Shown: positions 26,971 to 31,684 of the stretch, in pieces | Position numbering within the stretch: the stretch's first letter is position 1 | Layout of the letters: every line of letters starts with the position of its first letter | Source of the DNA: an uncultured Candidatus Pelagibacter sp. | GTDB lineage: Bacteria; Pseudomonadota; Alphaproteobacteria; Pelagibacterales; Pelagibacteraceae | Reading direction: 5' to 3' | NCBI RefSeq assembly: GCF_943788075.1 | Contig: NZ_CALSOW010000001.1 | Coordinates: 231,128 to 295,127, forward strand | DNA length: 64,000 nucleotides | Notes under the pieces: model-generated | Database searches by the model: none | Seen by the model: the letters and a program-made list of their open reading frames with translations, nothing else | What the model was told of the DNA's origin: nothing | Program-made: the position numbers and the translations under genes

Positions 26971-27487
26971 ATTCAAAATAAGATATACCTGCAAAATCTG
27001 ATTGATCTAAAAAATTAAGTTTTTTAAGATTACTTTTAGAAATCCCACCTAAAGCAACAACATTTAATTTAGTTAAATTTGATAGTATCTTAAATTTATT
27101 AATTCCTAGAAAATTTTTGTTTTTTTTAAATAAAGAAGATAAAAAAATTTTTTGAACACCCTGTTTTTCTTTTATTCTTATTTCTTTAAGGTTGTGTGCA
27201 GATCCAATGATATTAAAATTTTTTTTATAAGAGTAAGCTAAGTGATTTGTGTTTTTATTAAAAGAAGGAATATATGCTCCATCTAAATTAAGTTTAATTG
27301 CAAGTTTTATGTCATTAGATAAATAAAATTTTATTCCTCTTTTTTTACAATGATTTTTGATTTTTAAAATGAGATCTTTATTTTTTATATTTAAAGTATA
27401 GTTCCTATAGATAATAACAGTTTGCTTGTCTTGTTTATTGATAATATTTGTATCAAATTTATTTATAAAGTAATATTTACTAATCAT
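26969..27487 (-). CDS. ThiE/TenI-like protein (thiamine phosphate synthase family)
   Basis: With the start at MISKYYFINKF the protein has 172 residues. It shows a shortened TIM-barrel pattern of ThiE/TenI: IIYRNYTLNIKN, IKFYLSNDIKLAIKLNLDGAYIPS, NIIGSAHNLKEIRIKEKQGV, and VVALGGISKSNLKKL followed by DFAGISYF. The ThiE phosphate-binding Ser/Thr loops are not well kept, so true TMP synthase activity is doubtful; a TenI-like or other role is possible. It is divergent from the YggS gene by 6 bp. Confidence 0.65.
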   Translation of the reverse strand: MISKYYFINKFDTNIINKQDKQTVIIYRNYTLNIKNKDLILKIKNHCKKRGIKFYLSNDIKLAIKLNLDGAYIPSFNKNTNHLAYSYKKNFNIIGSAHNLKEIRIKEKQGVQKIFLSSLFKKNKNFLGINKFKILSNLTKLNVVALGGISKSNLKKLNFLDQSDFAGISYFE

Positions 27488-27493
27488 ATTTGT

Positions 27494-28154
27494 ATGCATA
27501 ATACTGTAAAAAATTTATTAGATATTGAGAATAATATTAATACTTATCTTAATAAATTAAATATCAATAATAATCCCAAAATTATTGCTGTATCAAAGAC
27601 TTTTAAAATTGATAAAATTTTACCACTTATAGAACATGGCCATATAGATTATGGTGAAAACAAAGTCCAGGAAGCAATTGAAAAATGGACAGAAATTAAA
27701 AAGATAAATTCAAATATAAAATTACATATGATTGGTAAATTGCAAACAAATAAAGTGAAATTTGCTGTTCAAATATTTGATTATATCCATTCGGTAGATA
27801 GTGAAAAACTTGGCTAAAAAAATTGCGGATGAACAAAATAAGATAAATAAAAAAATCAAAATATTTTTACAGGTTAATATTGGTGATGAAAATCAAAAAT
27901 CGGGTATTAATAAAAATGATATTAACCAACTAATTTTATACTGTAAGGAGATTGGTTTAGATTTAATTGGCTTGATGTGTATTCCTCCAGTAAATATTGA
28001 TCCAGAAAACTGCTTTGATGAGATGAACCAACTAAATAAGAATTCAGGTTTTAATGAATTAAGTATGGGGATGTCTTCAGATTTTCTTAAAGCAGCAAAA
28101 CATTTTTCAACATATGTAAGAATTGGTTCAAGTATTTTTGGCAAGAGATATTAA
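27494..28154 (+). CDS. yggS: YggS-family PLP-binding protein, frameshifted near 27809
   Basis: The first part (IIAVSKTFKIDKILPLIEHGHIDYGENKVQEAIEKW with the PLP-binding Lys, then LHMIGKLQTNKVKFA) and the second (KIFLQVNIGDENQKSGI, LIGLMCIPP, LSMGMSSDFLKA, VRIGSSIFGKR) are separated by one extra base in GAAAAACTTGGCT near 27805-27812. The corrected protein has about 219 residues. The family keeps PLP homeostasis. The start MHNTVKNLL at 27494 was chosen because it leaves room for the divergent gene. Confidence 0.87.
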
Positions 28155-28657: not shown

Positions 28658-29221
28658 ATGAACGTGCAGAATTTAATAATATACAAGTTTACTCCATTAT
28701 ATCACATTCTTGAAGAACTTAGTTTAGATCTTAATTTTAAGATCTGTTTTATTGATAGCGAGAGCTCTTTGAACAAAGAAGTAAAAAATCATAATAATTA
28801 TTTAATTATATCCAGTAAAAATTATCTAGATATTGAAAATCAATTTGTTTTAGAAAACAAACCAATTAAAATTTTTAAATTAATAGAAAAAATAAATATC
28901 GAATTTTTAAAACTTCAATTTAATAATCAATCCCAGGTTAAAGTTAAATCATATATTATAGATCTAAATTCAAGGGAAATGTTAATACAAAATACAAAAT
29001 TAAAATTAACTGAAAAAGAAATCAATACGATTATTTATTTGTCTAATTCAAATCAACCTGTTGGTATTGATGAGTTGCAAAAAATGGTGTGGAGTTATCA
29101 ATCTGATATAGAAACTCATACGGTCGAGACACATATTTATCGATTAAGAAAAAAAATTTTAAATACTTTTAATGATAATGAATTTATTGTTAGTAAAAAA
29201 AATGGTTATCAAATCAAATAA
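28658..29221 (+). CDS. Orphan OmpR/PhoB-type winged-helix protein
   Basis: 187 residues. The C-terminal 90 residues form a trans_reg_C winged helix (KLKLTEKEINTIIYLSNSNQPVGIDELQKMVWSYQ, then HTVETHIYRLRKKI). The N-terminal 85 residues have receiver-like length but no clear acidic pocket or phospho-acceptor Asp, so control by phosphorylation is doubtful. It starts 12 bp from the divergent L,D-transpeptidase gene, which could be a target. No histidine kinase gene is nearby. Confidence 0.7.
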   Translation: MNVQNLIIYKFTPLYHILEELSLDLNFKICFIDSESSLNKEVKNHNNYLIISSKNYLDIENQFVLENKPIKIFKLIEKINIEFLKLQFNNQSQVKVKSYIIDLNSREMLIQNTKLKLTEKEINTIIYLSNSNQPVGIDELQKMVWSYQSDIETHTVETHIYRLRKKILNTFNDNEFIVSKKNGYQIK

Positions 29222-29321
29222 GAAAAATCTAATAGCTAAAAACCTATTTACAAAAAAGTATAAGCCAAAAGTAGTTAAGCCCAAAAAAGGCAAGGGAAGT
29301 TTTAAAAGAAAAAAAAGTTAA
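29202..29321 (+). CDS. Small ArfA-like ribosome-rescue protein (39 aa)
   Basis: A very basic 39-residue ORF (starts MVIKSNKKNLIAKNLFTKKY) whose ending KKGKGSFKRKKS closely resembles the KKGKGSYxRK motif of ArfA, preceded by NLF like the ArfA LFR element. ArfA recruits RF2 to ribosomes stalled without a stop codon. The ORF overlaps the end of the winged-helix gene by 20 bp in another frame and lacks a Shine-Dalgarno sequence, so coupling is likely. A chance Lys-rich ORF or an ORF of other function remains possible. Confidence 0.55.
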   Translation: MVIKSNKKNLIAKNLFTKKYKPKVVKPKKGKGSFKRKKS

Positions 29322-29323
29322 AA

Positions 29324-30254
29324 TTAAAGTCTTGCACCGATTTGTTGTATTACTTTTGATGACAATTCAGTACCTTGTTCCAAACATTCTTTAACTGATA
29401 ACCCATTAATATATCCGTGAAGAAATCCAGCAGCAAATAAATCACCAGCACCTGTAAGGTCAACAATTTTTAGATTTTTTTTTATATCACACTCAAAAAT
29501 TTCCTCACCATTAATTGCTACCGATCCTTTTTCACCTCGAGTTACAACTATTAACTTATTAAGCTGTTTTGAAAAATCTATAACATCGTTAAAATTCTTT
29601 GCTTCAATTAATGACGTAATTTCTTGTTCGTTTGCAAAAGTTATATCTAGTTTATTTTTTACTAAGTTTAAAAAATGAGATTTATGTCTATCTACACAAA
29701 ATAGATCAGAAAGCGACATTGCTACTTTATTCGCATTATTAATTGCTTTATCAAATGCTTTTTTAGGCTCTCCCTCATCCCACAAATAACCCTCTAAAAA
29801 TATTAATTCACTTTTTTTAATAGCTTCAGAGCTAACATCATTTTCATTAATTTTTCCTGCTGTTCCAAGAAATGTACACATCGTCCTTTCAGAATCTGGA
29901 GTAACCAATATTAAACAAGTACCTGTCGGTAATTCTTCTTTCTTTTTTGAGTAAAAATACTCTACATTTTCTTTTTCTAAACCTTGCTCGTATTTGTCTA
30001 CCAAAGTCGTCATCAGAAACTTTTCCAATAAAACCTACCTTGTTACCAAGTTGAGCCAACCCAACTATAGAATTTGCTACAGAACCTCCAGAAACAGTTT
30101 TTTCAATTTTAAGATTAGTTAATAGATCTTTGAATTCTTTTTCATCAAAAAACAATTTCATTGTACTTTTTGTGAGATTATTTTTATCAATAAAACTGTC
30201 ATCTACTTTACAAATGACATCTACTATCGCATTTCCTATTCCTAAAATTTTCAT
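29324..30254 (-). CDS. PfkB-family sugar/nucleoside kinase, frameshifted near 30000
   Basis: The N-terminal part (MKILGIGNAIVDVICKVDD, VSGGSVANSIVGLAQLG, GFIGKVSDDDFG) and the C-terminal part (DKYEQGLEKENVEY onward, with VTRGEKGSVAI and VDLTGAGDLFAAGFLHGY holding the catalytic Asp and anion hole) are joined by removing one base at about 29999-30001. The corrected length is about 309 residues. It is closest in style to the adenosine kinase-like branch of PfkB; the substrate is not certain. It lies at the end of a leftward run dapB-nth-pfkB. Confidence 0.85.
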
Positions 30255-30255
30255 A

Positions 30256-30909
30256 CTAAGCTTTTTGGGTAATAACAGGTTTTTTTCTACTTGGGTAGCA
30301 AGTAGTACATATTTTACAGGTTAAACCATAACAATCTCTTGCTTTACAATATTCTCTTCCATAAAAAATTATTTGTAAATGAAGTTTAGACCAAGTTTTT
30401 TTAGGAAATATACGCTTTAAATCTTTTTCAGTTTCAACTACACTTTTTCCATTTGTTAGTCCCCATCTTTGTGCAAGTCTATGAATATGAGTATCAACCG
30501 CAAATGCTGGATATCCAAAACCTTGAGACATCACTACGCTAGCTGTTTTATGACCCACACCAGGTAATTTTTCTAGTTCTTCAAAGGTTTTAGGGACTTT
30601 TCCGTTGTGTTTTTCTAAAACTTGTTTTGACATTAAATAAATACTTTTAGCTTTAACTCTAAAAATACCAATTTTTTTTATCAATCTTTCAATTTTTTTT
30701 CTTCCTAATTTAACAAAATGTTCTGGTTTATAATGTTTTGGATATATATCTTTTGTTACATTGTTAACGTTTACATCAGTACATTGCGCTGAAAGAAGTA
30801 CAGAAATCAACAGCGTAAAAGTATTTTTACTTTTAAGAGGAATTGGTGTTTTAGGATAAATCTTATTTAGAATCTTAATTATTATTTTTGCTTTTGATCC
30901 TTCATTCAT
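30256..30909 (-). CDS. nth: Endonuclease III (DNA glycosylase/AP lyase)
   Basis: The chosen start (MNEGSKAKIIIKIL) gives 217 residues and overlaps the dapB stop by one base (TAATG). The helix-hairpin-helix LEKLPGVGHKTASVVMSQGFG holds the catalytic Lys, followed by the catalytic Asp in AVDTHIHRLAQRWGL. The C-terminal Cys cluster is EYCKARDCYGLTCKICTTC, five Cys in unusual spacing compared with the C-x6-C-x2-C-x5-C of E. coli Nth. It removes oxidised pyrimidines. Confidence 0.94.
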   Translation of the reverse strand: MNEGSKAKIIIKILNKIYPKTPIPLKSKNTFTLLISVLLSAQCTDVNVNNVTKDIYPKHYKPEHFVKLGRKKIERLIKKIGIFRVKAKSIYLMSKQVLEKHNGKVPKTFEELEKLPGVGHKTASVVMSQGFGYPAFAVDTHIHRLAQRWGLTNGKSVVETEKDLKRIFPKKTWSKLHLQIIFYGREYCKARDCYGLTCKICTTCYPSRKKPVITQKA

Positions 30910-31684
30910 TATGAAAAATTGAGCAAATCTCTCATAGAATATAATCCCGGTCTTTTTTTCATCAACCATTTGGCAGCTGTCAAAGCTCCATCCGAATAAA
31001 GCGCTCTATCAAAAGCTTCATGGTTTAGTGTAATTATTTCTTTACCACTTGAGAATTTTACTTCATGTTCTCCAATAATCTCACCTTTTCTTATTGAATT
31101 AAAATTAATTTTTTTCCCATATGGAAAAGATTTTTTATTTAAAAATTTGTTACCAATTAAACTATATAAGTTTTTATTTTTACCATCAGCAATTCCTTTT
31201 CCAAGCATTAACGCTGTGCCTGATGGATAGTCTTTCTTGTGTTTATGGTGCACTTCAAATATTTTACTTAAATATTCATCATTCAAAGATTTAGAAGCAA
31301 TTTCAGTTAAATACATTAACAAATTTACACCCAAACTCATATTTCCAGCTTTTAAGATAGGTATTTTTTTTGAAAATTTTTAATTTCATTTTCTTGGTTT
31401 TTATTGAAGCCTGTTGTTCCAATTACAATTTTTTTTTTGAGTTTGGCTGCTATTTTTAGTATTTCTAGGGTGCAATCAGGAACTGTAAAATCAATAATTA
31501 TATCTATATTTTTAAATGCTTTATCAGAATTTAATTCTGGTTTAACTCCATTAAATTTTTTGTTAACTAACCAATTCTCTGTAAGTGTTACTAGTCTAAA
31601 ATTTTTATTTTTTTTGGAAGACTTTATTAGTTGCTGGCCCATTCTTCCCATACAACCTGAAATCGCTAAATTAATTTTTTTCAT
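30909..31684 (-). CDS. dapB: 4-hydroxy-tetrahydrodipicolinate reductase, frameshifted near 31375
   Basis: The N-terminal half has AISGCMGRMGQQLIKSSKK (NAD(P) binding), IDFTVPDCTLEIL and VIGTTGFN. The C-terminal half has AGNMSLGVNLLMYL, FEVHHKHKKDYPSGTALMLG with the catalytic His pair and Lys, and FDRALYSDGALTAAKWL. One T missing from the run at 31373-31376 (four instead of five on the coding strand) separates them. The enzyme belongs to lysine and meso-DAP synthesis, so the break is likely an artefact. Confidence 0.92.

Follow-up and report, generated by a model that had tools for sequence, protein, structure and literature searches.

A short ArfA-like gene, probably for a ribosome-rescue factor, in SAR11 bacteria and on viral contigs

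Results

A small gene between a regulator and a sugar kinase gene

The window analyzed here, a stretch of 64,000 nucleotides, comes from an uncultured Candidatus Pelagibacter sp. of the SAR11 bacteria, with a genome of 1.26 Mb in 9 contigs that is 85% complete. At the locus under study, a gene for a winged-helix protein is followed by a small open reading frame (ORF) and by a convergent gene that presumably encodes a PfkB-type sugar kinase (Table 1). A sequence-only reading of this DNA had proposed that the ORF, with its basic motif KKGKGSFKRKK, encodes a 39-residue candidate for the ribosome-rescue factor ArfA and overlaps the preceding gene in another frame. Translation (MVIKSNKKNLIAKNLFTKKYKPKVVKPKKGKGSFKRKKS) and conservation bear out the ORF, the motif occupies residues 28-38, and the first 20 bases lie within the end of the preceding gene. 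An alternative in-frame ATG at 29172 would extend the protein to 49 residues; the start at 29202 appears likelier, because the other 29 aligned same-genus loci give proteins of 34-42 residues, the range spanned by the starts chosen in all 30.

Table 1. Features of the locus in the window, and related viral ORFs.
Feature	Position or locus	Strand	Remarks
Upstream gene, 187 aa, winged-helix Trans_reg_C domain at the C-terminus	28658..29221	+	Last 20 nt shared with the beginning of the ArfA-like ORF
ArfA-like coding sequence, 39 aa, ATG to TAA	29202..29321	+	Pfam ArfA match, conservation, dN/dS
Conserved core, residues 9-37 (N9 to K37)	29226..29312	+	Gapless alignment with E. coli ArfA 14-42
KKGKGSFKRK tail	29283..29312	+	Counterpart of E. 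coli ArfA 33-42 (mRNA-tunnel segment; PMC5378476, available text)
Convergent PfkB-type sugar kinase gene, two overlapping frames	29324..30254	-	Single frames in 27 relatives
Viral ORFs with the motif inside a longer protein	L242, L245, L246, L251, L252, L255, L260, L267-L269, L275, L280, L283, L287, L289, L292, L294

The winged-helix domain is the sole Pfam domain of the upstream regulator, the N-terminal half of which has no match to a receiver domain. The two frames of the PfkB-type gene (29324-30028 and 29889-30254) correspond to one open frame in the relatives, and the split is likely a sequencing or assembly indel. Two further neighbors, at 27422-28154 (+) and 30909-31684 (-), which we take to resemble YggS and DapB, are also broken into overlapping frames. 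Since three neighboring genes are thus interrupted, indel errors may be frequent in the window assembly.

The gene order recurs across the order. The regulator adjoins the ArfA-like gene in 28, the PfkB gene in 23 and both in 21 of 30 same-genus loci; the corresponding counts are 74, 69 and 65 for 80 loci kept from a motif pattern scan (of at least 406) and 30, 29 and 29 for the best 30 of 222 order-wide loci, three sets that share some genomes and in which contig ends cut some loci. Among genera g7-g10, the regulator is present in 7/7 loci and the PfkB gene in 6/7 (once at a distance); in genera g5 and g6, neither is near the ArfA-like gene.

Conservation and selection

Strong homologs (E <= 2.3e-8) occur in 30 of 37 same-genus genomes, the window genome included; six lack a match and one has a weak match only, many of the 37 being incomplete. 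A profile of 30 SAR11 members that includes no ArfA from elsewhere (A1) matched, at E <= 0.01, 222 of the 297 genomes drawn from the order and 120 of the 150 that are of high quality. For 197 of these 222, E was at or below 1e-10, with tails read in the fetched loci only. The other 25 matches are weak (E 3.7e-5 to 6.4e-3) and originate from another family of the order (21), genus g6 (3) and one same-genus genome (1); the weak-match loci that were fetched have a shortened tail lacking GKGS. The motif pattern scan confirmed at least 406 homologous loci, and the 80 kept all belong to Pelagibacteraceae, Pelagibacterales or Candidatus Pelagibacter.

The ORF is under purifying selection. Over the 29-codon core of the 30 same-genus loci, mean dN divided by mean dS is 0.14 (272/435 pairs usable), and third codon positions hold 5679 of the 10241 differences. 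Close pairs among 138 distinct cores give a dN/dS of 0.097 (3521/4442 pairs usable), in a set to which 80 loci were admitted through the motif itself, so that part of the tail conservation in this set is built in by the choice of loci. Stops interrupt both other core frames, at 0.07 and 0.17 per codon. The 30 aligned members share the tail residues KKG, S and R without exception; the place of the ArfA tyrosine is occupied by F in the window protein and most members and by Y in a minority. Conservation in close relatives and dN/dS had been named as checks on the original proposal: the ORF, the motif and usually the position are kept in SAR11, and the ratio is about 0.14. The overlooked gene is real and conserved.

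It is also dispensable. Among 20 same-genus genomes without an ArfA-like match that we followed, 17 possess the PfkB gene, and in 16 of these the coding ends of the regulator and the PfkB gene are at most 38 nt apart with no ArfA-like ORF between them; the exception, G033, has a gap of 611 nt. Because no fewer than 16 same-genus genomes lack the gene where it normally lies, with no visible replacement, it is non-essential. On a PfkB tree of 137 rows the presence label changes six times, the tree being weakly resolved and its strongly supported branches forcing one change only. Presence is the usual state, and loss (or gain) has occurred, probably more than once. We do not claim a remnant in G063, where the likeness may stem only from the overlapping frame of the regulator.

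Sequence match to ArfA

The Pfam ArfA family (PF03889) matched the window protein over residues 20-38 only, at E 1.7e-5 and 24.6 bits. It matched all 30 aligned members at E <= 0.01 (best E 2.6e-8) and was the only Pfam family to do so. The search with the ArfA family suggested by the sequence-only reading matches 30/30 members and places the window protein itself just under the gathering score of 25.5. A member from a sister genus (g5) reaches 32.8 bits, above that cut-off, and in sister-genus and viral members the match extends over profile positions 12-43. A phmmer search of the PDB with the window protein returned six sequences, all ArfA and all weak (E 0.088-0.25). NCBIfam had no match to the window protein and none to E. 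coli ArfA either, and is thus uninformative.

In the reverse direction, A1 scores E. coli ArfA at 28.4 bits, compared with a maximum of 17.7 among 20,000 shuffles of that sequence; in six-frame translations, no locus has a second-best match above 8.4. Comparison of A1 with E. coli ArfA alone by hhalign gave 90.6% over 34 columns with no gaps, the accompanying E-value being that of a single pair and uncalibrated for basic sequences. Ahead of the tail, the residues aligned include N, I, L, Y/F and V. Because the match runs gapless through the core, homology to ArfA looks likelier than convergence, judging from these alignments.

Common to the SAR11 proteins and E. coli ArfA (b4550) are the KKGKGS[YF]xRK tail, an invariant L with a conserved N six residues ahead of it, an aromatic residue at the place of Phe25 and Val/Ile at that of Val29, as well as a 3' end that meets a convergent gene. 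They differ in length (34-42 residues in the 30 same-genus loci versus 72 encoded in E. coli) and in genomic neighbors. An NLF element (residues 14-16) had been named as part of the upstream likeness. It is not the counterpart of E. coli PLF, an assignment ruled out by the gapless alignments, which place Phe25 on Tyr20 in 'KKY'.

RF2 contacts

The RF2 of the window genome (L325) keeps GWGHQIRSYVL, GIHRLVRISPF and RRHTSF, with its residues numbered on our assumption of how they compare with E. coli RF2. According to the available text of PMC5378476, the tail of E. coli ArfA (residues 31-48) occupies the mRNA tunnel, residues 25-29 pair with a strand of RF2, Leu19, Leu24 and Phe25 contact RF2 around Trp319, and Ala18 packs in the N-terminal fold. 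The RF2 elements that ArfA contacts in E. coli, namely the switch-loop WG and the strand RRHTSF, are kept (contacts from the same text). On the ArfA side, Phe25 and Val29 correspond to Tyr20 and Val24 and Leu20 is kept, whereas Ala18, Leu19 and Leu24 are replaced by K13, N14 and K19 in the window protein and by K, N/D/E and K across SAR11 members. Among the counterparts of Ala18, Leu19, Leu24 and Phe25, the aromatic place alone is thus kept (contacts as given in the available part of PMC5378476). With the tail nearly identical letter by letter and much of the N-terminal patch changed, these sequences suggest that tunnel sensing is probably the same as in E. coli ArfA, and that docking of RF2 probably uses a different N-terminal surface.

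Expression control

In E. coli, arfA is controlled through a hairpin and a non-stop mRNA, whereas no such arrangement was seen in the SAR11 gene: its 3' end has no hairpin, the RNA fold is average (z 0.02), and there is no terminator-like site at the gene. The fold value and the lack of such a site indicate that non-stop-mRNA control of the E. coli style is absent. Promoter-like sites are no more frequent around the gene than expected by chance. Where our script found an upstream ORF, the start overlaps it by 1-29 nt in 23 of 25 loci, which suggests translational coupling to the upstream gene. As the protein stops with the tunnel motif, truncation is predicted to be superfluous.

Rescue systems in SAR11

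Alpha-tmRNA was detected in 55 of 57 SAR11 genomes, the misses (G081, G131) having arisen under strict filters. The RF-1 domain model, which scores E. coli ArfB at 91 bits as a positive control, found two matches in 54/57 and one in 3/57 of these genomes, all of RF1 or RF2 size; a third match, as would be given by an ArfB candidate, was absent from 57/57. Three or more matches occur in 25 of 80 other alphaproteobacterial genomes. Because genomes of 1-2 Mb among those 80 mostly have two, SAR11 is not alone in lacking ArfB. With tmRNA and RF2 encoded and ArfB candidates missing, SAR11 would have in this gene an apparent backup to tmRNA.

Relatives beyond SAR11

Across 385 genomes of the class, PF03889 matched 10 (3 of them SAR11), DUF7230 (PF23876) matched 5, and a further profile, A2, matched 30 at E <= 0.01, including 3 SAR11 and some chance-like rows. 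Several of the class matches are short ORFs that follow the pattern R[NP]PxAxxL...[FY]+x+VxxxKK(GKGS)YxRK. Scattered non-SAR11 alphaproteobacteria (L182, L183, L184, L185, L177, L180) have ArfA-like ORFs in which the tail is complete or almost so. Small basic ORFs that share the N-terminal half and lack GKGS are found in g6, one same-genus genome and a second family of the order (L194, L206, L214, L195-L205, L207-L213).

The short-tailed g6 protein L214 passes the DUF7230 model with 27.8 bits (cut-off 27), and a short-tailed ORF of G618 scores 41.7 bits. The window protein has no DUF7230 match at E <= 10, and E. coli ArfA reaches E 0.11 only. Compared profile to profile, A1 and a hand-made short-tail set (A3) align with 96.1% probability and a deletion of GKG. 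The DUF7230 tail is three residues shorter (KKxYxRK versus KKGKGSYxRK). That ArfA-like and DUF7230 proteins form one family is, on these comparisons, reasonable but unproven.

Viral copies

IMG/VR contains at least 168 confirmed relatives, of which 80 were kept. The core is present in 77 of these 80 viral ORFs, with up to 26/28 core residues identical to a host copy, and in 17 the motif lies inside a longer protein of 117-142 aa (Table 1). The flanks of one such ORF, L242, match PHROGs 2423 and 17747, both function-unknown groups. Neighbors were examined in three viral contigs: L219 carries a T4-type clamp-loader gene, L217 an M15 peptidase together with DNA like that of pelagiphage HTVC010P, and L241 genes for chaperonin-10 and an M15 peptidase. 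No canonical match was found in stretches of HTVC010P, HTVC028P (first 18 kb), HTVC202P, HMO-2011, HTVC103P and HTVC033P, where the best A1 score is 8.0 bits. A tblastn search of phages with P0001 gave no match and, with the low-complexity filter on, is uninformative. Earlier annotations of viral copies, as given in the available parts of two papers, are gp30 of pelagiphage HTVC027P (PMC12753301) and g10 of Citromicrobium phage RXM (PMC8953757). The viral claim rests on the IMG/VR contigs and these two annotations, not on the six named-phage isolates. A short-tailed-like ORF in Pelagibacter phage HTVC033P (L344, 1540-1710) scores 15.9 bits with A2.

Discussion

We regard it as quite probable, from the alignments, profile matches and accompanying rescue components, that the product of the gene is a short ribosome-rescue factor of the ArfA family, which in SAR11 apparently backs up tmRNA. 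Once a ribosome has run to the 3' end of an mRNA that lacks a stop codon, its small subunit has an empty mRNA tunnel, into which the basic tail KKGKGSFKRKK would be inserted; the N-terminal half (N..A..L....Y) would then help RF2 to dock, and RF2 would hydrolyze the peptidyl-tRNA. Translational coupling to the upstream gene could make expression constitutive.

Short basic proteins are prone to chance likeness, and several other explanations were weighed. That the ORF is spurious, a product of the regulator end overlapping AT-rich lysine-coding sequence, might be suspected from the AT-rich genome, the start within another gene and the basic, low-complexity sequence; it is ruled out by conservation at 30 same-genus loci, the concentration of change at third positions and a dN/dS of 0.14, to which the stops in both other core frames (0.07 and 0.17 per codon) can be added, and we give it almost no credence. 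A small protein that associates with ribosomes or RNA for a different purpose, for instance in assembly or hibernation, could carry a lysine-rich tail that only resembles ArfA: the protein is short and strongly basic, has no link to a known rescue gene, and has relatives without GKGS in g6 and the second family. Against such a role, which we deem highly improbable, stand the invariant KKG, S and R of the tail in 30 aligned members and the fact that ArfA is the sole Pfam family found for them at E <= 0.01.

A convergent factor, i.e., an unrelated basic peptide that has acquired an ArfA-like tail and recruits RF1 or RF2 through other contacts, is the rival to which we assign somewhat more weight, albeit as an unlikely one. 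It would account for the changed hydrophobic patch that contacts RF2 in E. coli and for a Pfam match restricted to residues 20-38 of the window protein, and it has a precedent in ArfT, which is also about 40 residues long and is regarded as independently evolved (PMC6299226, available text); independent origin has likewise been proposed for BrfA. However, the 34 gapless columns shared with E. coli ArfA extend beyond the tail to N, I, L, Y/F and V on its N-terminal side, Pfam matches in sister-genus and viral members reach profile positions 12-43, and shuffles of equal composition fall short of 28.4 bits. Homology to ArfA, as opposed to convergence, therefore remains our favored explanation. 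Of the two outcomes foreseen by the sequence-only reading, a wider range or convergent design, the former is supported against two surveys and the latter looks less likely.

These surveys, in the parts available, report arfA in 0 of 2,376 alphaproteobacterial genomes (PMC11633108) and the absence of ArfA from Alphaproteobacteria (PMC10070815), in samples that may or may not include SAR11. The open-licence papers searched, as far as their text was available, do not describe an ArfA encoded by SAR11 cells. Comparison with other small rescue factors was by description only. ArfT of Francisella tularensis, which recruits RF1 or RF2, resembles the SAR11 protein in its length of about 40 residues, a basic C-terminal motif and freedom from hairpin control, and differs in the motif itself (KKGGSTNKK versus KKGKGSFKRK), following the available text of PMC6299226. 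BrfA of Bacillus subtilis is likewise a small RF2-dependent factor (PMC8012679, available text), a dependence that we infer for SAR11, and differs in that it is reported to have no kinship with ArfA and to occur in Bacillus only.

If the gene is an ArfA, its reported range reflects profiles and gene calls that miss proteins of 35-40 residues, and SAR11, among the most abundant bacteria of the ocean, has an unrecognized backup to tmRNA. The scattered loss within one genus offers an opening to ask when a streamlined cell can forgo backup rescue, and the close copies on viral contigs to ask why phages bring their own; a testable function for DUF7230 would follow as well. More tentatively, ArfA might be one branch of a family that spans Alphaproteobacteria and phages and ends in either KKGKGSYxRK or KKxYxRK tails, DUF7230 included; SAR11 would then use ArfA in place of ArfB, and marine phages would carry ArfA, in part as a fusion with another small phage protein, so that ribosomes stay available during mRNA breakdown in infection. 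We hold this joint proposal to be possible and, as a whole, rather doubtful.
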